Position numbers and translations under genes: made by a program. Below the pieces are notes generated by a model, which saw nothing but the letters and a program-made list of their open reading frames with translations, was not told the origin of the DNA and made no database searches. DNA of 44,890 bases, taken from contig CAJCIS010000041.1 in the NCBI GenBank assembly GCA_903970435.1, positions 1-44,890 of the forward strand. Reading direction: 5' to 3'. Below, piece by piece: positions 13,939-29,593 of the stretch. The DNA is from Acidobacteriota bacterium (GTDB lineage: Bacteria; Pseudomonadota; Alphaproteobacteria; Acetobacterales; Acetobacteraceae). Position 1 is the stretch's first letter; each line of letters opens with the position of its first letter.

Positions 13939-14958
13939 ATGCATGTTCTGAATATCCACGGCGTGAACGATGTGCGGCTCGACCCGGCAGCGAAACCGTC
14001 GCCGGGCAGCGCCGATGTGGTGATCAAGGTGAAAGCGTGCGGTATTTGCGGCAGCGATCTCAGCTATATCAAGATCGGCGGCATTCACCGCAAACCGGGC
14101 GGTGTCACGCCCATCGGCCACGAAGCGGCCGGTGAGGTCATCGCCGTTGGCGCCGATGTGAGGGATATTGCGGTCGGTCAACGGATGGTCATCAATCCGA
14201 TGAACACGCCGAGTTATATCGGCAGCGGCGGGCCGGAGGGCGCCTTTACCAACGAATTGCTGGTACGCGGCGCCCGCGCGGGCGACAGCCTGCTGCCAAT
14301 CCCTGATGATCTGCCCTACGAAATCGCCGCTCTCACCGAACCTTTCGCGGTGGCGCTGCACGGCGTCAACCGCGCCGAAGCCGAGCCCGGCGACAAAATT
14401 GTCGTCTTCGGCTGCGGCCCGATCGGGCTCGGCATGGTGCTCTGGCTGATCGATCGCGGCGTGACCGACGTGGTCGCGATCGATCTGGCGGACGAACGGC
14501 TGGCCCGCGCCACGGCGCTCGGCGCCCGCGCCGTCATCAATCCGCAACGCGAAGATGTTCGCGCACGTCTGGCCGAACTGCATGGCACCGCCCGCGTCTT
14601 TTCGCGGGAGGCGGTTGGCACCGACGCCTATATCGACGCGGCCGGCGCCCCTTCCCTTCTGTCGGACGTGGTTCGAATGGGGAAATACCACGCCCGCATG
14701 GTTGTTACGGCAGCGTATATGCAACCGGTACCACTCGATCTCGGTGCTATGCTTACCACCGAAATGACAATTACGACCGCGGTTGGTTATCCGACCGAAA
14801 TGCCCGAAGTGCTGGCGGCCTTGCCGCGGCTGCGCGCCAAGGCCGAGCCACTGATCAGCCATCGCTTTCCGCTCGACCGGGTAATTGAGGCGCTTGGCGT
14901 CGCCGGCACGCCGTCCTCGGCCAAGGTAATGATTGAAATGCGGGAGGATCGGGTATGA
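13939..14958 (+). CDS. Zinc-type medium-chain alcohol dehydrogenase, structural-zinc lobe missing
   Basis: 339 aa. GroES-like domain with the catalytic-zinc residues Cys37 (ACGICGSD) and His61-Glu62 (IGHEAAGEV), then a Rossmann domain with FGCGPIGLGM (about 156-165). Similar to threonine/sorbitol dehydrogenase-like MDRs. The usual four-cysteine structural zinc loop after the GHE motif is replaced by INPMNTPSYIGSGGPEG, so only the catalytic zinc is expected. ATG 13939 is preceded by ACGGAGAG. Its TGA overlaps the next ATG (ATGA at 14955-14958), indicating translational coupling with the metallohydrolase. Substrate unknown. Confidence 0.9.
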   Translation: MHVLNIHGVNDVRLDPAAKPSPGSADVVIKVKACGICGSDLSYIKIGGIHRKPGGVTPIGHEAAGEVIAVGADVRDIAVGQRMVINPMNTPSYIGSGGPEGAFTNELLVRGARAGDSLLPIPDDLPYEIAALTEPFAVALHGVNRAEAEPGDKIVVFGCGPIGLGMVLWLIDRGVTDVVAIDLADERLARATALGARAVINPQREDVRARLAELHGTARVFSREAVGTDAYIDAAGAPSLLSDVVRMGKYHARMVVTAAYMQPVPLDLGAMLTTEMTITTAVGYPTEMPEVLAALPRLRAKAEPLISHRFPLDRVIEALGVAGTPSSAKVMIEMREDRV

Positions 14959-16202
14959 GCGGCGCAACCGAAGCGAGCTCCAAGCAAATGCCACCGCTCG
15001 CCGGTCTCGTGCTCGCCGGCGATGCCCAGCTTCAGGCCACGGCGATCACTGACTTCATTTTCATGGCAAAGGACATATCGAACGCCTACCTGGTAACGAC
15101 CGGCGACGGTGACGTTCTGATCAACAGCGGTTTCATGGACAATGCCACACGAACAAAGGCGCTGCTCGATCCGGTGCGCAGCGGTCCGCTGCGGGCGATC
15201 ATCCTGACACAGAGCCATGCCGACCATTATGGTGGTGTGCCGACGCTGCGCGAGCCGGACACCAAGATCGTTGCGCAAAGCCGCTTCGTCGACAATTGGC
15301 AGGACATGTTGTATCTGCAACCATATTTTGCGCCGCGCACACGCAAGCTGTGGGGCACGACGATCAAACGCGGGTCAAGTCCCCAACCGGCGCCGCAAAT
15401 CTTTCCCGACATCGTGGTCGACCGCGACTACACCTTCGAGCAGGGCGGCCGCCGTTTTGAAATATTCTCGACCCCCGACGGGGAAACCACCGATGCGCTT
15501 ACAGTGTGGCTGCCGGATGAGCGAATCGCATTCACAGGCAATTTGTTCGGGCCGGTGTTTCTGTCCATGCCGTTCCTTTGCACCTTGCGCGGCGACAAGC
15601 CCCGCTCGGTGCGAAGCTATCTGAGCTCACTCGACCGCGTGCGCCGACTTGGCGCGGAGATTCTCGTCACCGGCCATGGCGATCCGATCCGCGGTGCCGA
15701 CGAAATTCGTGCGGGGCTGGACCGGATGCATGCAGCCGTTACTTATGTGCGCAACGAGACACTCAAAGGCATGAACGCCGGCAAGGATGTGCACACGCTG
15801 ATGCGTGAAATCCAGCTGCCACCGGACCTGCTGATCGGCGAATATCATGGCAAAGTAAGCTGGGCGGTGCGAACCATCTGGGAGGAATATTCCGGATGGT
15901 TCCATTACGACTCGACGACGTCTCTCTACGGCGTGCCGCGATCGAGCATAAATGCGGACCTCGCGGAGCTTGCCGGTGGCGCCGGCGCGCTTGTGACGCG
16001 GGCCCGCGCCAAGCTCGACCAGGGGCGTCCGCTGGAGGCCATCCATCTGCTGGATATTGCACTCGGCGTGGACCCGAAAAATGCCGACGGGCTTGCGGTG
16101 AAGAGGGCAGCACTTACTTTCCTGACTGCGGAATCGGGCGGGACGAATTTAAGCGAGACGATGTGGCTTCGGTCGGAGATAGCAGCCGTTGAGGGGGCGT
16201 GA
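14955..16202 (+). CDS. Alkylsulfatase-like MBL-fold metallohydrolase
   Basis: 415 aa. Metallo-beta-lactamase domain (about 40-260) followed by a helical region resembling the alkylsulfatase dimerisation domain (SLYGVPRSSI, then VTRARAKLDQGRPLEAIHLL). The SCP2-like C-terminal domain of SdsA1 is absent. Metal motif: TQSHADHYGG (85-94), where the first His of HxHxDH is Gln86; the later GHGDP (about 234-238) is present. SdsA-type enzymes cleave primary or secondary alkyl sulfates. With the sulfotransferase upstream this suggests sulfate-ester chemistry, but the motif change leaves the activity uncertain; a hydrolase of another ester is possible. A family A element starts at the stop codon. Confidence 0.8.
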   Translation: MSGATEASSKQMPPLAGLVLAGDAQLQATAITDFIFMAKDISNAYLVTTGDGDVLINSGFMDNATRTKALLDPVRSGPLRAIILTQSHADHYGGVPTLREPDTKIVAQSRFVDNWQDMLYLQPYFAPRTRKLWGTTIKRGSSPQPAPQIFPDIVVDRDYTFEQGGRRFEIFSTPDGETTDALTVWLPDERIAFTGNLFGPVFLSMPFLCTLRGDKPRSVRSYLSSLDRVRRLGAEILVTGHGDPIRGADEIRAGLDRMHAAVTYVRNETLKGMNAGKDVHTLMREIQLPPDLLIGEYHGKVSWAVRTIWEEYSGWFHYDSTTSLYGVPRSSINADLAELAGGAGALVTRARAKLDQGRPLEAIHLLDIALGVDPKNADGLAVKRAALTFLTAESGGTNLSETMWLRSEIAAVEGA

Positions 16203-20529: not shown

Positions 20530-22206
20530 TCATCGTGCGTTCGCCCGCGCCGCATGTTGCGCCGCCACGAATCCCCAGGTAAAAGCCGGTCCCACGCTGG
20601 ACCCTGCCCCCGGATAGGCTCTGCCCATCACCGAAGCGGTCGACGTGCCCGTCGCATAAAGCCCCTGGATGATGGAGCCATCCTCGCGCAGCACGCGGGC
20701 GTTTTCGTCCGTAACGACGCCGCCATAGGTGCTCACGTCGCCCGGCACCACCGGTACGGCGTAGAACGGTGCTTCCGCGATGGTGCCAAGCGTTTCGGAA
20801 GGACGATGATAGGGATCTCCCAGCCACCGGTCGTAGGCGCGCGCGCCGCGGCCGAAATCCTCGTCGCAATTCCGTGCCACGAATCCGTTGAATCGCGCCA
20901 CCGTTGCGGTAAGTGTTGCCGGATCGATATCGAGCAACGCCGCCAGCTCACCGACCGTTGCCGCCTCGCGCAAATAATTTTGCGCGCGCCAGCTGTCCGG
21001 CTTTTTGCTGCCGGGCATGGTGCCCGCCAGCATGTAATTGCGCAGGAACGCCGCATCGAAAATCGCCCAGCTCGGCACGGCGGGTACGGTCTTGTTCCGC
21101 GCCAGCATTTTTCTGCAATATTCCATGTACGAGCCGCCTTCGTTCATGTAGCGCACGCCGCTCTGGTCGACCAGAATGGCATGCGGCGCGGCGGTCAGGC
21201 TTTGCGCCGGCGGCTTCACGTCGTTGTTCTCCGTGCCCGGCGCCAGCGTACTTTGGTAGCCGACCATTTCCTCCATCTGGCCGATGGCTGCACCATGCCG
21301 CATCATCTCTTCGATCATTTCGCCTGTGTCGCCCTCGGCCGCATTGGTCCAAAGCACCGACGTCCCGGGCTGATATTTGTCGCGCATCGCCTGGTTGCGC
21401 GCGAAACCGCCGGCATTGACGAGCACGCCTAGTTGCGCGCCGATCGCCCACGGCCGCCCATCCTTGACCGTCAGCACGCCGGTCACCACGCCGTTCTCCA
21501 CAACCAGTTCCCGCACCGGACTTTCGGTGCGGATGTCGATCCCCGTCTTCAGGGCGGCGCGCAGCATCTGCCCCTGCAGCGCAGCCCCCGCCGAAACCAG
21601 GCGCTTGCCGGCCAACCGGCTCACAACCGTCCGCAGCATCACTTTCAGCATCAGGAACTTGCCGGACCATGCCTGCTTGTAGGTCGGCAGTTGCATCAAT
21701 TCCTCGAGCGACGCGGCGTACGTAACAAATCCCGGCCGCAATTTTTCCTTCCACGGCCCCAGTTCGTTCACGTCGAATAATTCCGCCACCACGGTGCGGC
21801 CGGCCTCGGTGCCGCCTTCACGCTCATCGTAATAGTCCGGCCACGATTTCACGCGGGTTAGCTTAATGCCTTGGCTGAGCAGGAACGCTACCATGCGCGG
21901 CGCCTCCGCGACATAGGTGCGTCGACGCGCCGGCGTGGTGCCGGGCGCGTCTTCGGCGTCGCCAACCACGGCGTCGAGATAGGCGGAAGCTTTTTCCGGA
22001 CTGTCCTCCACCCCGTCGCGGCGCATGAAGGGATTGTTCGGTATCCACATCACGCCGCCCGAACGCGCCGTTGTACCGCCAACGAGGCTGGTCTTTTCCA
22101 GGATCACGACGCTTCGGCCGCTGGCGCGCATGAAGAGGCCGCCGCACATCGAGCCGCCGCCGCTGCCCACGACCACGAAATCGAACGTCTCGTCGAACGC
22201 CTGCAT
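20530..22206 (-). CDS. FAD-dependent 3-ketosteroid dehydrogenase-like flavoprotein (KstD family)
   Basis: 558 aa. N-terminal FAD-binding VVVGSGGGSMCGGLFM (about 11-26) and VILEKTSLVGGTTARSGGV, then the FAD-binding C-terminus GLYATGTSTASVMGRAYPGAG. The Tyr and Gly of the RAYPGAGSS segment correspond to catalytic residues of KstD (delta-1-dehydrogenation of 3-ketosteroids); the SVGPAFTWGFVAA tail also matches. Related flavoproteins dehydrogenate other cyclic ketones, so a non-steroid alicyclic substrate is equally possible. The ATG at 22206 starts the conserved FAD domain; upstream the frame runs through a family A element and the adjacent CoA-transferase in the wrong frame. A short relic of a similar gene lies at 34416-34499. 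Confidence 0.88.
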   Translation of the reverse strand: MQAFDETFDFVVVGSGGGSMCGGLFMRASGRSVVILEKTSLVGGTTARSGGVMWIPNNPFMRRDGVEDSPEKASAYLDAVVGDAEDAPGTTPARRRTYVAEAPRMVAFLLSQGIKLTRVKSWPDYYDEREGGTEAGRTVVAELFDVNELGPWKEKLRPGFVTYAASLEELMQLPTYKQAWSGKFLMLKVMLRTVVSRLAGKRLVSAGAALQGQMLRAALKTGIDIRTESPVRELVVENGVVTGVLTVKDGRPWAIGAQLGVLVNAGGFARNQAMRDKYQPGTSVLWTNAAEGDTGEMIEEMMRHGAAIGQMEEMVGYQSTLAPGTENNDVKPPAQSLTAAPHAILVDQSGVRYMNEGGSYMEYCRKMLARNKTVPAVPSWAIFDAAFLRNYMLAGTMPGSKKPDSWRAQNYLREAATVGELAALLDIDPATLTATVARFNGFVARNCDEDFGRGARAYDRWLGDPYHRPSETLGTIAEAPFYAVPVVPGDVSTYGGVVTDENARVLREDGSIIQGLYATGTSTASVMGRAYPGAGSSVGPAFTWGFVAAQHAARANAR

Positions 22207-22357
22207 GCGTCTGCCTTCCTGCCATTTCGTAGTCATAATAATGACTGCGCTGTTGCCAGCCGCCGGGCTATACATTGGCCGTCGTGGCGCGGCCACAATC
22301 GGTATCGGGGCCGGGGAAATATCGCTCGGGGGATGTTGCGCGTAAGTGACAAGAAGA

Positions 22358-22403: not shown

Positions 22404-23561
22404 TTAAACAAGGGGGGCAAGTTCCGCCAGCACCTCTTGCGTGTGTGCGCCCAGGGTCGGCGCCCCTGCGGCGACCCGGCCCGGCGTGCGCGAAAACCAC
22501 GTCGGGACACCGGGAAAGCGGACTTTGCCTTGCGGCGTGTCCACCGTCTCGAACAAGCCGACGGCATTCAAATGCGGGTCGTCGAACAGTTCGGCGGGGC
22601 TTCGAATCGGCGCAGCCGGTATATCCAGCGCCCGGAACAGATCGAGCCATTCCTGGGTCGTTCGCTCGATGATGGTGCCGGCCAGAAGGCCGTACACCGT
22701 GTCGATCTGACGCGCCCGCTGCTCGATCGTTCTGAATTGATCATCAGCCCAGGGCGGTTGCACCGCATCGACGAAGGCCGCCCATTGCTTATCGTTGTAG
22801 ATCAATGCAGCAATCTGGCCATCGCGCGTCCGATACGGCCGCCGATTGGGCGCCACCGCACGGGGATAGATCGCGGGGCCGAGCGGCGGGTCGAACATGG
22901 CGCCGTTGGCGTGTTCCACCAGCATGAACGCCGCCATTGTTTCGAACATGCTGACTTCAACCTCCTGCCCCGCGCCGGTCCGCTCTCGATGAAACAACGC
23001 CATCACCGTGGCATAAACCGCGGTCATGCCCGCGATCTTGTCGGCCATGATGGTGCCGACATAATTTGCCTCGCCTGTCAGCATCTGTTGCACCGCCGGC
23101 AATCCGCACTCCGCCTGGATCGTGTCGTCGTACGCCGTCAGGTCCTTGTTCGGGCCGCGGCGGCCATATCCATAGCAGTTGGTGTAAATGATGGCCGGAT
23201 TGATTTCTGCAACATCTTCATAGCCAAACCCGAGTTTGGCGATCGCCTTGAACCGCATCGAATGAATGAATACGTCCGCTTTCGCAATGAGACCCCGCAG
23301 GGACGCCCGGTCCGCTTCCGAACGCAGATCAAGAACGACGCTGCGTTTGCCACGATTGACGTTGATGAAAACGCCGCTCATTCCAGGCTCCGGCCCGACG
23401 GAAATGCGCCGTGTGTTGTCGCCGGCCGGCGGCTCGATCTTGATGACGTCCGCGCCCATGTCCGCCATGATCTGGGTGCAATACGGACCCATCACCATGG
23501 CGGTGAGGTCAACCACCCGCACGCCCGCCAGCGGCCCTGCACCCTTCGCGCGGTTGCTCAT
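22404..23561 (-). CDS. CaiB/BaiF-family (class III) CoA-transferase
   Basis: 385 aa. Transfers CoA between acids by a ping-pong acyl-Asp mechanism. N-terminal GVRVVDLTAMVMGPYCTQIM and ADMGADVIKIEPPAGD are family signatures. The catalytic Asp is at about 174 (TIMADKIAG), followed by the domain EVEVSMFETMAAFM. Likely activates a carboxylic acid of the pathway using succinyl-CoA, or recycles CoA from a product. It is divergent from the acyl-CoA dehydrogenase gene (165 bases between starts), so a shared regulatory region is expected there. Substrate unknown. Confidence 0.93.
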   Translation of the reverse strand: MSNRAKGAGPLAGVRVVDLTAMVMGPYCTQIMADMGADVIKIEPPAGDNTRRISVGPEPGMSGVFINVNRGKRSVVLDLRSEADRASLRGLIAKADVFIHSMRFKAIAKLGFGYEDVAEINPAIIYTNCYGYGRRGPNKDLTAYDDTIQAECGLPAVQQMLTGEANYVGTIMADKIAGMTAVYATVMALFHRERTGAGQEVEVSMFETMAAFMLVEHANGAMFDPPLGPAIYPRAVAPNRRPYRTRDGQIAALIYNDKQWAAFVDAVQPPWADDQFRTIEQRARQIDTVYGLLAGTIIERTTQEWLDLFRALDIPAAPIRSPAELFDDPHLNAVGLFETVDTPQGKVRFPGVPTWFSRTPGRVAAGAPTLGAHTQEVLAELAPLV

Positions 23562-23726: not shown

Positions 23727-24893
23727 ATGGATTTTTCACTCACCACCGATCAGCAGAACATCAGGGATACGATCCTGAAGCATTGTTCGCGGTTTGGGGA
23801 CGATTATTGGCTCGCGCGAGACCGGGAAGCCATCTTTCCGCACGATTTCTACAAATCGCTGGTTGATGGCGGCTGGCTCGGCATTGCGATACCGGCCGAA
23901 TTTGGCGGCTCCGGTTTAGGCGTCACGGAAGCCACGGTCATGATGCAGGCGATTGCCGAATCGGGGGCCGGCATGACCGGTGCGTCGAGCGTCCATATTC
24001 CGGTGTTCAGCCTGCAGACCGTTGTGCTGTTTGGCACGGAAGCGCAAAAAGCACGCATGCTGCCGCCCGTGGTCCGCGGTGAAGACCAGGTTTGCTTTGC
24101 CGTCACCGAGCCCAATGCAGGGTTGAATACCACGGAAATCAAAACCCGGGCGGAACGGCGTGACGGCGCCTATGTGGTGAACGGTGAGAAAATCTGGATT
24201 TCCACGGCGCAGGTCGCCAACAAGATGCTGCTGCTCGCGCGCACCACGCCGCTCGACCAGGTCAAGCGCAAGGCCGATGGGCTTTCGCTTTTCTACACGG
24301 ATTTAGATCGATCAAGAATCGACGTGCGGCTGATCCACAAAATGGGCCGTCACGCTGTCGATTCGAACATGCTTTTCATCGAAAACCTGATCGTGCCCGA
24401 GGAGGACAGAATCGGCCCCGAGGGGGAAGGGTTCAGGCTCATTCTTCACGGCCTCAACCCGGAACGAATCCTGATCGGCGCCGAGGCGGTTGGCATCGGC
24501 CGGGTGGCCATTGCGCGCGCCGCGCGCTACGCGCGGGAACGCATCGTTTTCAACCGGCCGATCGGCATGAACCAGGGCATTGCCCACCCGCTCGCCAAAT
24601 GCTGGGCGCAGCTCGAGGCGGCCAACCTGATGGTCATGAAAGCCGCCACCCTCTACGATCGCGGCGAAGAATGCGGGGTCGAGGCCAATGCGGGCAAATA
24701 CCTGGCGGGCGAATATGCGTTCGAGGCCTGCCACACCGCCATGCTGACCTTGGGCGGCATGGGCTACGCGCAGGAATATCATGTCGAACGGTATTTGCGC
24801 GAATGCCTGATACCCCGAACCGCGCCTGTGAGCCCGCACATGATCCTGAATTTTCTGGCCGAGAAGGTGCTGGGACTTCCCAAATCGTACTGA
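23727..24893 (+). CDS. Acyl-CoA dehydrogenase
   Basis: 388 aa, full length. N-terminal helical domain (MDFSLTTDQQNIRDTILKHC), the FAD-binding middle motif CFAVTEPNAGLNTTEIKT and WISTAQVAN, and the C-terminal QYLGGMGY-like LGGMGYAQEYHVERYLRE. The usual catalytic Glu of the YEGT position is replaced: the segment reads RTAPVSPHMILNFLAEKVLG, a form seen in an acyl-CoA dehydrogenase subfamily with branched or cyclic substrates. Oxidises an acyl-CoA to an enoyl-CoA, passing electrons to ETF. First in a plus-strand run with a CoA-ester lyase, a CoA-transferase and an enoyl-CoA hydratase. Confidence 0.93.
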   Translation: MDFSLTTDQQNIRDTILKHCSRFGDDYWLARDREAIFPHDFYKSLVDGGWLGIAIPAEFGGSGLGVTEATVMMQAIAESGAGMTGASSVHIPVFSLQTVVLFGTEAQKARMLPPVVRGEDQVCFAVTEPNAGLNTTEIKTRAERRDGAYVVNGEKIWISTAQVANKMLLLARTTPLDQVKRKADGLSLFYTDLDRSRIDVRLIHKMGRHAVDSNMLFIENLIVPEEDRIGPEGEGFRLILHGLNPERILIGAEAVGIGRVAIARAARYARERIVFNRPIGMNQGIAHPLAKCWAQLEAANLMVMKAATLYDRGEECGVEANAGKYLAGEYAFEACHTAMLTLGGMGYAQEYHVERYLRECLIPRTAPVSPHMILNFLAEKVLGLPKSY

Positions 24894-24910
24894 TGATGAC
24901 ACGCCAAACA

Positions 24911-24985
24911 GATAAAAGTTCTTTGCTTCTTTCTTTCAAGAAAGAAGAATCTTCTTTTCTGAAGAAAAGAAGCAAAAGACTTTTG
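24911..24985. repeat. Two adjoining family A elements with altered but intact stems
   Basis: Back-to-back copies (24911-24949 and 24950-24985) between the acyl-CoA dehydrogenase and lyase genes. Stems are CTTCTTTCTT/AAGAAAGAAG and CTTCTTTTCT/AGAAAAGAAG. Both differ from consensus at several positions yet stay perfectly paired, which argues that pairing is kept by selection. Confidence 0.85.
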
Positions 24986-25009
24986 CTCATTCAGGAGAGG
25001 AACATCAAC

Positions 25010-25888
25010 GTGACCGACACTGCCGCACGTTCATGGCTGTTCGCGCCGGGCGACAGCGCGCGGAAGATGGAGAAAGCGACCGCCGGCGCCGCGGATATCG
25101 TCATCATCGACCTCGAGGATGCGGTCGCCGAAGACGCAAAGGCCGGCACGCGGCCCATCGTTGCGGAATTTCTGCACGCGCACGCGGCACAGCGCCGGCG
25201 GCTCTGGGTGCGGATCAATCCAATCCAGTCGGCGCACGCGCTTGCCGACCTCGCCGCCATCATGCCGGCCGGTCCGGGCGGCATCATGTTGCCGAAGCCA
25301 CGCGGGCGCGCGGACGCGGAACTGTTGCACCATTATCTGACCGCTCTGGAAGCCGCAGCCGGTCTTTCTCAAGGCGCCACCAAGGTCATTCTCCTTGTGA
25401 CCGAGACGCCCGAAAGCATGCTGGCCACAGGCAGCTACGCCGGTGTGCCCCGCGTCACCGCCATGTCCTGGGGTGCGGAGGATCTTGCGACCGCGCTCGG
25501 CGCCATTGACAATCGTAACGCGGACGGCAGTTACGAATTCACCTATCAACTGGCACGCAGCCTCTGCCTGGTGGGTGCGGCTTCGGCCGGTGTGTCCGCT
25601 ATCGAGACAATTCAAGGTGATTTCCGCGACGAGGCCGGCCTGCGCCGCCGGGTGGCCGAGGTGCGGCGCGCCGGATTCCGCGGCATGCTGGCGATCCACC
25701 CGGCGCAGGTCGATGTGATCAACGAGGCTTTTACGCCGAGTGAAGCGGAACGCGCATCGGCGCAGGAAATTGTCGATCTGTTCGCGGCCAATCCTGGTGC
25801 CGGCACAATTGGCCATAAGGGTGCCATGCTGGACCGGCCGTATCTGATACGGGCACAGGCAGTGCTGGCGCTTGCGGCGTCGCGATGA
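25010..25888 (+). CDS. HpcH/HpaI aldolase-like CoA-ester lyase (CitE family)
   Basis: 292 aa from GTG 25010, with AGGAGAGG (24993-25000) nine bases upstream. Motifs: RSWLFAPGDSARKM, DIVIIDLEDAVAEDAK (metal-binding Glu/Asp), LWVRINPIQSAHA, VTETPESML, SWGAEDLATALGA and MLAIHPAQVDVINEAF. These are the markers of CitE-like malyl/citramalyl-CoA lyases. Cleaves a beta-hydroxyacyl-CoA into two smaller pieces, typically releasing acetyl-CoA plus a keto acid. Its TGA overlaps the ATG of the CoA-transferase (25885-25888). The pairing resembles RipC (lyase) with RipA (transferase) in itaconate degradation. Confidence 0.9.
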   Translation: MTDTAARSWLFAPGDSARKMEKATAGAADIVIIDLEDAVAEDAKAGTRPIVAEFLHAHAAQRRRLWVRINPIQSAHALADLAAIMPAGPGGIMLPKPRGRADAELLHHYLTALEAAAGLSQGATKVILLVTETPESMLATGSYAGVPRVTAMSWGAEDLATALGAIDNRNADGSYEFTYQLARSLCLVGAASAGVSAIETIQGDFRDEAGLRRRVAEVRRAGFRGMLAIHPAQVDVINEAFTPSEAERASAQEIVDLFAANPGAGTIGHKGAMLDRPYLIRAQAVLALAASR

Positions 25889-27159
25889 CACTTTCAACGG
25901 ATGCCGACAGGCTAAGGCTCGATGAATTTCTGCGCCGGGGGGACCGCATCGTGTGGGGCCAGGCGTGCGGCGAACCCACAACGCTGGTTGAGGCGCTCAT
26001 TGCTCAGGCGGACAGTATCGGCGACCTCTCGGCGTTCGCGGCCACCAGTTTTTCGGGCATCCTGAATGCGGCGGCGGCGGCAAAACTCAACCTCTCCAGC
26101 ATGGGCGCCATCGGCGCGTTGCGCACCATCGCCGCCACCGGGCAGCTTGGCATTGTGCCTTGTCATGTCAGCCAAGTCGGGCCGATGATCGCGCAGGGGC
26201 TGATCGGGTGCGACGCCGCGTTTGTGCAGGTCAGCCCGCCGGATGCGAACGGAAATCACAGTTTTGGCCTGATCAACGATTTCGTGCAAGCCGCCGTGGC
26301 GAAGGCCCGCGTGGTCATTGCTGAAGTGAATGTGTGCGTGCCGTTCACGCTGGGCGATGCTATGCTGCCGGCCGCACGGATCGACTGCGCGGTGCACGTC
26401 GCGCGGCCGCCGGTGGAGGTTGCGCCGTCACCGATCGCCGACACCGACCTTGCCATCGCCAGGATCGTTGCCGGCTATATCGGCGACGGCGCCGTGCTTC
26501 AGGTGGGGATCGGTGCGGTACCGGACGCGATTCTGCGGCTGCTGCACGACCGAAGCGACCTCGGTGTTCATTCCGGCATGATTGGCGATGGGCTGGTCGA
26601 TCTGGTGCAGGCAGGTGTAATCACCAACGCGTCCAAGCCGATCGACGCCGGCATTTCCATCACCGGCGCACTGATCGGCACCAAGATTCTATATGATTTC
26701 GCCGACCGCAATCCGCAGATCGGCATGCGCGCTTCCAGCTACACACACGATGCCGAAGTGCTCGCGCGCATCCGGCGATTCGTTACCATCAACTCGGCGC
26801 TCGAAGTGGATTTGACCGGGCAGGTGAATGCCGAACAGAGCGGCAATAATTATCTCGGCGGTACCGGCGGGCAGGTGGATTATGTGCGTGCCGGCAGCCG
26901 TTCGCCGGGCGGCCGTTCCATTATCGCACTCCCCGCGACGGCGCGGGGCGGCAAGCTCAGCCGCATCGTGGCCACCCTGTCCGGCCCCGTCACGACCGCC
27001 CGCGCCGAGGTGGACGTGATCGTCACCGAGTTCGGCGCGGCCGAGCTCCGGGGCCAAACGCTCGCCGAACGCACGCGCCGCCTGGTCGCCATTGCCCATC
27101 CGGATTTTCGCGACGCGCTGGACCAGGCAGCGCACGCCATTCAACGCAGAGGTTTCTGA
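25885..27159 (+). CDS. Acetyl-CoA hydrolase/transferase-family CoA-transferase (Cat1/RipA-like)
   Basis: 424 aa. Class I CoA-transferase related to 4-hydroxybutyrate CoA-transferase. Markers: QVSPPDANGNHSFGLINDF, VLQVGIGAVPDAIL, HSGMIGDGLVDL, NSALEVDLTGQVNAEQSG (contains the catalytic Glu) and TEFGAAELRGQTLAER. Moves CoA from succinyl- or acetyl-CoA to an organic acid. It is translationally coupled on both sides: its ATG overlaps the lyase stop, and its TGA overlaps the hydratase ATG (27157-27161). This lyase-transferase-hydratase unit suggests activation, hydration and cleavage of a short dicarboxylate or branched acid. Confidence 0.9.
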   Translation: MTLSTDADRLRLDEFLRRGDRIVWGQACGEPTTLVEALIAQADSIGDLSAFAATSFSGILNAAAAAKLNLSSMGAIGALRTIAATGQLGIVPCHVSQVGPMIAQGLIGCDAAFVQVSPPDANGNHSFGLINDFVQAAVAKARVVIAEVNVCVPFTLGDAMLPAARIDCAVHVARPPVEVAPSPIADTDLAIARIVAGYIGDGAVLQVGIGAVPDAILRLLHDRSDLGVHSGMIGDGLVDLVQAGVITNASKPIDAGISITGALIGTKILYDFADRNPQIGMRASSYTHDAEVLARIRRFVTINSALEVDLTGQVNAEQSGNNYLGGTGGQVDYVRAGSRSPGGRSIIALPATARGGKLSRIVATLSGPVTTARAEVDVIVTEFGAAELRGQTLAERTRRLVAIAHPDFRDALDQAAHAIQRRGF

Positions 27160-27926
27160 TGAACGACGCAGTTCTGTTCGAGGCGCGCGACGACGGCATC
27201 GCCGTCATCACCCTCAATCGGCCGGACGCCAGGAACGCCCTCGGCAAGGATATTCGCGACGGCCTGTTTGCCGCGTGGGATCGTTTTGAGCGCGATCCGG
27301 CACTGCACGTCGCCATCCTGACCGGCACGGGCGACCGCGCTTTTTGTGCCGGCGGCGATTTGAAGGAAATGACCGAGCTGCACCTCACCGTGCCGCCGCG
27401 GGACATGTTTCCGGTGCCGGGCGACACGATCGAGGTGAGCAAGCCGACGATCGCGGCAGTGAACGGCGTGGCCTTCGCCGGCGGCTGGATGATTGCGCAG
27501 GCCTGCGACTTGTGCGTTGCCAGCACGCATGCGCAATTCGCCATTACGGAAGTGAAGGTGGGCAGAAGCTCGCCGTGGGCGGCGCCGCTGATCCACATGA
27601 TTCCGCAACGCATCATGATGGAAATCGTGCTCACCGGAAAACCGATTACCGCGCAGCGCGCCTACGAAATCGGCCTGGTCAATCGCCTGGCCGAACCCGC
27701 GCGGTTGATGGAGGTGGCGCTGGCGCTGGCCGCCGACATCCTGGCCGGCGCGCCGCTATCGGTGCGGGCGGCGCGGGAGATGGTGATGCTCGCCACCGAA
27801 ATGGGCCGGACGGCCGCTCTGCGCGCCGCGCGGCATGCGTCGGAGACAGCTTATCGCAGCGACGATGCGCAGGAAGGTCCAAAGGCGTTTGCCGAAAAAC
27901 GAAGGCCAGAGTGGAAGGGAAGGTAA
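27159..27926 (+). CDS. Enoyl-CoA hydratase/isomerase (crotonase family)
   Basis: 255 aa. Hydrates an enoyl-CoA to the 3-hydroxyacyl-CoA. Oxyanion-hole motifs are AFCAGGDLKEM (about 66-76) and AVNGVAFAGGW (about 101-111). A Glu lies in the FAITEVKVGRSSP segment at the position used by catalytic Glu144. The second catalytic Glu position (rat ECH Glu164) is not obvious here. Starts at the ATG overlapping the CoA-transferase stop. The TAA at 27924-27926 sits at the edge of a family A element. Confidence 0.92.
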   Translation: MNDAVLFEARDDGIAVITLNRPDARNALGKDIRDGLFAAWDRFERDPALHVAILTGTGDRAFCAGGDLKEMTELHLTVPPRDMFPVPGDTIEVSKPTIAAVNGVAFAGGWMIAQACDLCVASTHAQFAITEVKVGRSSPWAAPLIHMIPQRIMMEIVLTGKPITAQRAYEIGLVNRLAEPARLMEVALALAADILAGAPLSVRAAREMVMLATEMGRTAALRAARHASETAYRSDDAQEGPKAFAEKRRPEWKGR

Positions 27927-28064: not shown

Positions 28065-28081
28065 TTTTCTTGACTTGGACC

Positions 28082-29593
28082 ATGACAAGCCAATTAAACC
28101 CCGAACGGGTGCTGATCATCGACGGCGCGCACCGGCTAGATTGCCGCACTCTGCACGACCAGGCAACAAGCCTTGCTCAGTCGATCCTCGCACGTATGCC
28201 GGCCGGCAGCGTGGTGTCCTTCATGCTGCCGAACTGGCACGAGGCTGCCATCATCTATCACGCCGCGTCGCTCGCCGGCATGGTGGTGCACCCAATCCTG
28301 CCGTCGTTGCGCGACCGTGATCTGCTGTTCGCGCTACAGGATACGGCCAGCCGCATGGTTTTCATTCCGGTACAATTTCGCAACCACGATTTCGTGGCCA
28401 TGCTGGGCCGGGTCGCCGCGCAATTGCCGGCGCCGCCGGAAATCGTGCTGGTTCGAGGCCATGAAGGCGGGCACACGCAATTTGCGACACTGCTGCATGG
28501 CGATCCGGCGCAGGCGCTGCCGCATGTCGATCCCGATGCGGCGCGAATAGTGCTCTACACGTCCGGCACCACCGGCCGCCCCAAAGGCGTGCTGCACAGC
28601 CATAATTCGCTGCATGCGCTGGCGCGCCAGATCGGCGACAATTGGCTGGTGGCGGAAGGCGATCGCTTCCTGGTGCCATCGCCGATCAGCCATATCGGCG
28701 GATCCATTTACGCGTTCGAATGCCCCCTCCTGCTGGGCGTCACCGCGGTGCTGATGGATCGCTGGAATGCCGACGAGGCCGTGCGGCTCGCGTCCACCGA
28801 GCGCTGGACGCACATGGCCGGTGCCACGCCGTTTCTGGAGCAGTTGCTCGCCGCTTCCCGCAGTGCGGACACAAGGCTGCCCAATTTGAAACTGTTCATC
28901 TGCGGTGGCGCGTCGGTGCCGCCGTCGCTGATCCGCGAGGCGGCCGGACATTTTTCGCAAGCGGTCGTGACACGCGTTTACGGCTCGACCGAAGTGCCGG
29001 TCACAACAATCGGCTCGGTGGATCGCGGGGACGTTGCGCATGCCGCCACCACCGATGGCCGCGCCGGCATTGCCGGCATCAAGCTCGCCGCGCATCCGGG
29101 CGCGCCGCAGGGTGAGGGAGAAATCCGCGCGCGCGGCCCGCAAATGTTCGTGGGCTATCTGCACGCCGAAGACGAAGCCGGGGCGTTCGACGAAGAAGGT
29201 TATTTTTGCACCGGCGACCTCGGCCGCTGGGAAGATGGCGACTACCTCGTCGTGACCGGCCGCGCCAAGGACATCATCATCCGGCTCGGTGAAAACATTG
29301 CGCCGAAGGAGATCGAGGACGTTCTGATCCATCACCCCGCCATTGCCGAGATTGCCATCGTTGGCCTTCCCGACGCCAGAACGGGGGAGCGGGCGTGCGC
29401 GGTCATTGTCCCGGCTGGCGACCCGGCCCCCACGCTTGCCGACCTGCGTGTATTTCTGGAAGCGCAAGGATTGGCCCGCTTCAAATTCCCCGAACAGGTC
29501 GTTCTCCAGGACAATCTGCCCCGCAACGACGCCGGCAAGATCCTCAAGGACCGCCTGCGGGCCGCCATCCTGGCAAAGATGAAGAAGCAATGA
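28082..29593 (+). CDS. AMP-forming acyl-CoA synthetase
   Basis: 503 aa. Activates a carboxylic acid through an acyl-adenylate to its CoA thioester. Motifs: P-loop VLYTSGTTGRPKGVLHSH (about 157-174), RVYGSTEVPVTT (A5), YFCTGDLGRWEDGDYLV (A7 Asp), RAKDIIIRLGENIAPKEIE (A8) and NDAGKILKDRL with the catalytic A10 Lys. Similar to cyclohexanecarboxylate/medium-chain CoA ligases; exact acid unknown. ATG 28082 is preferred to the upstream TTG 28070. Its TGA overlaps the ATG of the SDR (29590), so the pair is translationally coupled. Confidence 0.93.
   Translation: MTSQLNPERVLIIDGAHRLDCRTLHDQATSLAQSILARMPAGSVVSFMLPNWHEAAIIYHAASLAGMVVHPILPSLRDRDLLFALQDTASRMVFIPVQFRNHDFVAMLGRVAAQLPAPPEIVLVRGHEGGHTQFATLLHGDPAQALPHVDPDAARIVLYTSGTTGRPKGVLHSHNSLHALARQIGDNWLVAEGDRFLVPSPISHIGGSIYAFECPLLLGVTAVLMDRWNADEAVRLASTERWTHMAGATPFLEQLLAASRSADTRLPNLKLFICGGASVPPSLIREAAGHFSQAVVTRVYGSTEVPVTTIGSVDRGDVAHAATTDGRAGIAGIKLAAHPGAPQGEGEIRARGPQMFVGYLHAEDEAGAFDEEGYFCTGDLGRWEDGDYLVVTGRAKDIIIRLGENIAPKEIEDVLIHHPAIAEIAIVGLPDARTGERACAVIVPAGDPAPTLADLRVFLEAQGLARFKFPEQVVLQDNLPRNDAGKILKDRLRAAILAKMKKQ

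Follow-up and report, generated by a model that had tools for sequence, protein, structure and literature searches.

What does a coenzyme A (CoA) transferase do when the catalytic glutamate of its class has been replaced? The question is raised by a group of genes in a 44,890-nucleotide contig from the Acetobacteraceae (CAJCIS010000041.1 of assembly GCA_903970435.1; the whole stretch is referred to here as the window). A homolog of the Cat1-type class I CoA-transferases lies there next to genes for an acyl-CoA dehydrogenase, a CitE-like C-C lyase and a crotonase-superfamily protein, with a CaiB-type class III CoA-transferase on the opposite strand. An earlier note on this DNA had compared the transferase, the crotonase and the lyase with the itaconate enzymes RipA, RipB and RipC. 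We favour a different reading, to which we give a probability of about one half: the five genes would constitute a catabolic module that is shared horizontally, acts on beta-branched or ring-derived dicarboxylic acids, and combines an intramolecular CoA-transferase, similar to ThnP of anaerobic naphthalene breakdown, with a CitE lyase.

Active site of the Cat1-type transferase

In the predicted structure of the transferase (mean predicted local distance difference test score, pLDDT, 89.8) the class I fold of Cat1 and 4-hydroxybutyrate CoA-transferase is kept, as the model matches the best solved fold match, 4-hydroxybutyrate CoA-transferase (PDB ID: 3gk7), with a TM-score of 0.92 at 36% identity, and RipA (PDB ID: 3qli) with a TM-score of 0.91. 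The best E-value in a phmmer search of the PDB is 3.3e-85. The active-site motif, H-T-E-M in the solved 4-hydroxybutyrate CoA-transferases, is H-S-G-M in the window protein; by alignment, Gly231 (26575-26577) occupies the site of the catalytic glutamate of class I CoA-transferases, named E238 in 4-hydroxybutyrate CoA-transferase (PMC11659651). With a glycine here, the usual glutamyl-CoA intermediate could not form at the usual site, and the protein, lacking the textbook catalytic residue, probably works in an unusual way.

The substitution is widespread. Of 84 non-redundant relatives, 70 have Gly at this site, 13 have Glu and one has Ala; these are counts from a non-random sample in which better-scoring matches were favoured, so that Gly rows are over-represented and 70/84 is not a population frequency. 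The sample comprises 21 of the 22 loci of a first scan (L017, with a transferase cut short, was left out), 11 plasmid matches chosen among 30 listed of 247 matching records, 19 places (20 requested) from 36 matching genomes including the window's own, 27 of 28 requested places from 46 matching genomes, and 4 new loci from 10 requested of 16 matching genomes together with 2 extra copies in the Amycolatopsis genome G397. Loci of 9 kb or less, transferases shorter than 330 residues, near copies (at least 98.5%) and copies of the window were excluded before counting. The sole alanine belongs to the third Cat1-type protein of G397 (L167). The site is Gly in all 12 loci added from the order of an Amycolatopsis.

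In an unrooted tree of 87 rows, the Glu rows (13 loci and two PDB rows) fall on one side of a single branch, which has a support of 100/98 and was recovered in 200 of 200 bootstrap trees. Two further positions follow this split. At the position of His288 (26746-26748), the 71 Gly rows (including the window) carry His in 68 cases and Asn in three, while all 13 Glu rows and the three solved relatives aligned have Asn. Glu30 (25972-25974) is present in 66 of the 66 Gly rows that have a letter there, against two of eight such Glu rows. The PDB holds an N347A mutant of the related AarC, whose N347 may, as a guess, correspond to the 288 site. In the window's own genome (4.29 Mb draft, 293 contigs, 94% complete) the lyase and the transferase each match only themselves at E <= 0.001; no second Cat1-type gene was seen there.

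The conserved gene set

The order of dehydrogenase, lyase, transferase and crotonase described in the earlier note agrees with the open reading frame coordinates and the Pfam families (Table 1), which also place the acyl-CoA dehydrogenase upstream of the lyase. The coordinates bear out the overlaps, of four bases between lyase and transferase and of one base between transferase and crotonase. The CaiB transferase is an additional member of the set. When contigs were scanned with the transferase, 22 loci were found, many of which share the order CaiB (opposite strand), dehydrogenase, lyase, transferase, crotonase. Each partner was sought within 6 kb of the transferase by means of one or two query proteins, a search that may miss distant homologs, and contig ends clip some neighbourhoods. 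With each partner at least 58% identical, all five genes occur together at 11 of the 84 loci, at 64-86% identity to the window. These records are from Steroidobacter (two), Solimonas (three), Hydrocarboniphaga (one), an uncultured alphaproteobacterium (one) and Sphingobium plasmids (two), together with a 'Verrucomicrobia bacterium' (G402) that groups in the order of a Solimonas and another genome of that order. Sinimarinibacterium and Stenotrophobium have all partners but the crotonase ortholog.

The set also reaches the Actinobacteria. The transferase has a match (E <= 1e-70) in 21 of 249 genomes of the order of an Amycolatopsis, and two of the 12 neighbourhoods fetched from that order (L180 and L182) carry all five genes on one strand, with CaiB as the first gene, intergenic distances between -16 and +17 bases, and the four-base overlap of lyase and transferase that is seen in the window. 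This conservation speaks well for a working operon that has passed from one phylum to another; with the same partners adjoining the transferase in such distant bacteria, the grouping of the genes is not due to chance.

The partners follow the Gly type. A match to the window's acyl-CoA dehydrogenase lies within 6 kb at 45 of 70 Gly loci and at none of 13 Glu loci, and the 34 loci of the 84 with a dehydrogenase at least 50% identical are all of the Gly type; of these 34, a CitE or 3-hydroxy-3-methylglutaryl-CoA (HMG-CoA) lyase match is found in 29, and a crotonase ortholog or MaoC in 26. A Fisher p-value on the neighbourhood counts, which takes no account of kinship, carries no weight here. Next to Gly-type transferases, members of different families serve as hydratase and as lyase within one and the same scheme. 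Crotonase orthologs (at least 58%) and MaoC proteins (at least 50%) are mutually exclusive, co-occurring in 0/18 and 0/13 loci; the combination of dehydrogenase, transferase, CaiB, MaoC and CitE is found in several sphingomonads and on a Frigidibacter plasmid. HMG-CoA lyase replaces CitE in Rhodococcus ruber, Mycobacterium paragordonae and a third locus (L048, L054 and L166), as well as in two added loci (L188 and L190).

The assignment to RipA, RipB and RipC was rejected on the active-site residue, the cut-off of the profile hidden Markov model and the tree. RipC (NF038242) is the best NCBIfam model for the window lyase, which at 143.2 bits is far below the cut-off of 375. By contrast, two loci of the window's own bacterial family, L066 and L069, have lyases that pass this model (395.4 and 407.2 bits) and MaoC proteins that pass the RipB model NF038241 (374.0 and 367.3 bits; cut-off 340). 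Their transferases, named RipA by their neighbours since no RipA model was among the NCBIfam matches, retain the catalytic Glu and adjoin RipB and RipC, and the window transferase is on the opposite side of the fully supported branch. These two loci (L066:7989-10697 and L069:6491-9242) are of the itaconate RipA-RipB-RipC type. The PDB holds the RipA mutants E249A and E249D. The suggestion that a crotonase stands in the place of RipB holds for gene content: no MaoC match is found within 6 kb in any of the 18 crotonase-ortholog loci, and MaoC fills the place of that role in other relatives. A normal hydratase mechanism, on the other hand, is not to be assumed, as a methionine stands at the Glu144 site (see below). 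The module noticed in the earlier note is real, and the type of chemistry suggested there was a good guess, but the enzymes beside which it was placed are the wrong ones.

Table 1. Features of the window that belong to, or lie beside, the gene set.
Feature	Coordinates	Strand	Evidence or remark
CaiB-type class III CoA-transferase	22404..23561	-	Pfam CoA_transf_3, 388.3 bits; gene order; divergent from the rest of the module in the window
Acyl-CoA dehydrogenase	23727..24893	+	Pfam Acyl-CoA_dh domains; alignment to 1ws9
AT-rich hairpin, member of a repeated intergenic family	24911..24988	.	Between dehydrogenase and lyase genes
CitE-like C-C lyase	25010 (GTG start)..25888, stop included	+	Pfam HpcH_HpaI, 109.9 bits
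Cat1-type class I CoA-transferase homolog, Glu-to-Gly subfamily	25885..27159	+	Pfam AcetylCoA_hyd_C, 184.6 bits
Crotonase-superfamily protein, proposed hydratase	27159..27926	+	Pfam ECH_1, 187.4 bits
AMP-forming acyl-CoA ligase, loosely associated only	28070..29593	+	Pfam AMP-binding, 208.2 bits

In the window the dehydrogenase and lyase genes are 116 bases apart, and this gap contains the hairpin, so co-transcription of the two is uncertain here. The predicted fold of 24911-24995 has an energy of -33.1 kcal/mol; the hairpin has terminator-like patterns on both strands, of which the whole region has six, fewer than the mean of 8.8 in shuffles. Partial copies of the AT-rich palindromic intergenic repeat lie near 928, 996, 3180, 4692, 6206, 6267, 10180, 16210, 28014, 33130, 38377, 42083, 44042 and 44822, and where a copy is translated as part of an open reading frame it gives extensions such as SFLKKR.

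The remaining neighbours indicate no single compound. Among the loci compared first, close orthologs of the ligase (66-68%) were confined to L005 and L008, where they lie 5-9 kb away from the transferase. In a comparison of recurring neighbours at 26 loci, a Rieske oxygenase (six loci), TauD (three) and a short-chain dehydrogenase/reductase (SDR; six, which we take to be FOX2-like), two of these families being assigned with Pfam, gave no common substrate clue. Downstream, the segment 31108-33401 (-) encodes the E1-alpha and E1-beta subunits and a free-standing lipoyl domain of a 2-oxoacid dehydrogenase; these possible users of a keto acid have no listed match in the earlier-compared loci, a set that leaves out L050-L167, and a similar trio (30-41% identity) lies about 4 kb from the Gly-type transferase of the added locus L183. 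The flavoprotein at 20530-22215 (-) is of the 3-ketosteroid-delta-1-dehydrogenase or 4-oxocyclohexanecarboxylate dehydrogenase type. It is below the cut-off of all NCBIfam models among the matches listed (25 of 28); the link to steroid breakdown was considered through its 3-ketosteroid-dehydrogenase likeness, which scores 645 bits against a cut-off of 789. A metallo-beta-lactamase-fold protein with an alkyl-sulfatase dimerisation domain is encoded at 14955-16202 (+).

A possible reaction sequence and its alternatives

The residues of the other four proteins bear on what they may catalyse. The putative catalytic site of CaiB, assigned by its motif, carries Asp in 27 of 27 orthologs (at least 50% identity; these and the following counts include the window). 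In the lyase, eight checked motif positions, presumably the Mg-binding and catalytic residues, are invariant in 21 of 21 orthologs (at least 60%). The dehydrogenase has Ala366-Pro367 (24822-24827) where the loop with the catalytic Glu is usual, and this pair and Glu246 (24462-24464), which we take to be a base of the isovaleryl-CoA dehydrogenase type, are each present in 41 of 41 orthologs (at least 50%). Isovaleryl-CoA dehydrogenase has its base at another site, one that suits substrates with a tertiary beta carbon. The loop Glu is reported to be absent from isovaleryl-CoA and long-chain dehydrogenases (PMC11659651). In the crotonase, Met111 (27489-27491) aligns with the Glu144 site and Glu131 (27549-27551) with the Glu164 site; among 23 orthologs the former is Met in 20 and Leu in three, and the latter is Glu in all. 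Both sites are Glu in another crotonase, the second one that the window encodes. A crotonase with Gly at position 144 and Glu164 alone has been predicted to act as isomerase and hydratase (PMC9804861), a precedent by which hydration is possible for the window enzyme, not granted.

ThnP, from the naphthalene-degrading culture N47, belongs to the Cat1 subgroup, has G238 at the catalytic Glu site and is described as an intramolecular CoA-transferase acting with the dehydrogenase ThnO; its mechanism was left open by its authors (PMC11659651). Judged by this published description, the window transferase shares with ThnP the Cat1 subgroup and a Gly in place of the catalytic Glu. From this likeness, the gene set and the residues above we infer the reactions, their order and their substrate as follows. 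The CaiB transferase, or a ligase, would load CoA onto one carboxyl of a dicarboxylic acid, and the Cat1-type protein would shift it between the two carboxyls of one molecule. The acyl-CoA dehydrogenase may then oxidise the chain at a tertiary beta carbon, and hydration by the crotonase would give a tertiary alcohol, closed to normal beta-oxidation, which the CitE-like lyase could cleave to a keto acid plus acetyl-CoA or a different acyl-CoA. In the earlier note a saturated branched or ring-derived dicarboxylate would undergo CoA transfer, dehydrogenation, hydration and cleavage. These proposed roles are consistent with the neighbourhoods and with two published pathways, even as their filing under RipABC does not stand.

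A number of observations weigh against this sequence. The crotonase does not have the catalytic pair Glu144/Glu164. In the window CaiB is divergent and the hairpin separates dehydrogenase and lyase. No CitE or HMG-CoA lyase match was found within 6 kb at 36 of 70 Gly loci, 11 lack every partner that was searched for and 13 lie near a thiolase, so that membership in the subfamily does not always imply the proposed chemistry; five of the 12 added loci (L183-L187) likewise show none of the searched partners. Lyase matches also occur at three of 13 Glu-type loci, and the Glu-type L068 carries an HMG-CoA-lyase-like match (36%). CitE lyases cleave between C-alpha and C-beta. For ThnQS, cleavage of a C-C bond within a ring is reported (PMC12016498), and the last step would therefore differ. 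ThnP, compared here by its description, is reported to be 46% identical to a P. gingivalis enzyme (PMC11659651), so that the Glu may have been lost independently; moreover, the candidate replacement acid of ThnP, E269, 31 residues past G238, corresponds at a simple offset to Ala262 here.

The loss of Glu could also point away from CoA transfer. It is unlikely, in our judgement, that the protein is a hydrolase of a C-C bond or a thioester similar to IpdAB, with the crotonase as a possible ring-opening hydrolase like EchA20 or BadI. IpdAB has Gly57-beta at the site of Glu54-beta, did not transfer CoA among the short acids that were tested and has been assigned as a COCHEA-CoA hydrolase (PMC5380842). 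The gained His288 and the invariant Glu30 could activate water, and the flavoprotein in the window resembles a 3-ketosteroid dehydrogenase; but IpdAB is of the glutaconate type and absent from the best 50 of 128 fold matches (E <= 0.001), the nearer, Cat1-type precedent ThnP moves CoA, and the set already contains a C-C lyase. Ordinary intermolecular transfer through Glu30 or His288, in a module otherwise as the earlier note proposed, is suggested by a fold and length as in 4-hydroxybutyrate CoA-transferase and RipA, and by the invariance of Glu30 in the Gly class. It seems improbable, as we know of no class I CoA-transferase without the catalytic Glu that performs it, and the set already has a separate CaiB transferase with its Asp. 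The Glu-less ThnP and IpdAB, moreover, are reported to show no transfer with the outside donors tried (PMC11659651, PMC5380842).

A C5 acid as substrate is, in our judgement, likewise unlikely. Non-orthologous enzymes might serve the C5 branched dicarboxylate pathway (methylsuccinate, mesaconate, itaconate), in which citramalyl-CoA gives acetyl-CoA and pyruvate and the Cat1-type protein would make a C1-to-C4 shift like that of Mct. The roles match those of the methylsuccinate/itaconate cluster (PMC12290011), Mct offers a precedent for the intramolecular shift (PMC9813914), RipC is the best model for the lyase, and the MaoC-CitE version on the Frigidibacter plasmid is followed by TRAP transporter genes. 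However, the lyase fails the model that those of L066 and L069 pass, and the 3-ketosteroid-dehydrogenase-like protein, a GMC oxidoreductase, several ligases and SDRs in the window would suggest bulkier molecules.

The ThnP-like reading can be extended, tentatively and with the odds somewhat against it, to the subfamily as a whole. Gly-type Cat1 proteins would then be a large separate class whose active site has been rebuilt, with Gly for Glu, His for Asn and an invariant Glu30, and which shifts CoA within a single dicarboxylate without passing through glutamyl-CoA. They would be the hub of a mobile five-enzyme module, common to Proteobacteria and Actinobacteria, for the cleavage of beta-branched or ring-derived dicarboxylates at a tertiary alcohol, with transferase, dehydrogenase and crotonase each lacking a textbook catalytic glutamate.

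Comparison with known systems

In the literature searched, which mostly did not extend to subscription papers, nothing on this combination was found beyond ThnP, IpdAB, the itaconate/methylsuccinate cluster and Mct, and ThnP is the only characterised Cat1-type CoA-transferase without the catalytic Glu. The present analysis adds dozens of relatives, the linked Asn-to-His change, an invariant Glu as a target for mutation, and an operon context that predicts partner reactions. For the Gly subfamily, the annotation 'acetyl-CoA hydrolase/transferase' and calls of an itaconate-type pathway can mislead, and the module offers bacteria of soil and water a possible way to open branched or ring-derived acids.

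The itaconate/methylsuccinate cluster (Ict/RipA, Ich/RipB, Ccl/RipC and methylsuccinyl-C4-CoA dehydrogenase) is described with the same roles, CoA-transferase, hydratase, CitE-like lyase and dehydrogenase (PMC12290011), but its RipA has the catalytic Glu and its RipB is of the MaoC type, and the window lyase misses the RipC model. The breakdown of steroid rings by IpdAB and EchA20 likewise involves a CoA-transferase fold that has the Glu-to-Gly change and is encoded next to a crotonase-superfamily enzyme, but IpdAB is a two-subunit glutaconate-type hydrolase, and the available text of the report mentions no CitE lyase (PMC5380842). The 3-hydroxypropionate bi-cycle offers a further likeness, which we return to below with Mct.

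In that bi-cycle, Mct carries out an intramolecular CoA shift like the one proposed for the window set; it differs in being a class III enzyme (Frc/CaiB-type) with the catalytic Asp165, not one of the Cat1 type (PMC9813914). The thn cluster has thnO, thnP, thnQ and thnS in a row, ThnQ and ThnS being AtuA-like lyases. The hydratase candidates ThnL, ThnU and the MaoC-type ThnI all converted the substrate, ThnL being the most specific, and the crotonase-type ThnL yields a tertiary alcohol, results marked there as unpublished (PMC12016498). The window set differs from thn in its CitE-like lyase, in the Ala-Pro of its dehydrogenase where ThnO retains the loop Glu363, and in the inclusion of a CaiB transferase. 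The genera of the five-gene set are of the aerobic type, unlike the setting of N47, and the bi-cycle, for its part, continues after Mct with a hydratase and cleavage by citramalyl-CoA lyase. What the window set has in common with ThnP and ThnO is a Cat1 transferase with Gly together with an acyl-CoA dehydrogenase acting on a dicarboxyl-CoA, in a sequence that a hydratase and a lyase complete (PMC11659651, PMC12016498).

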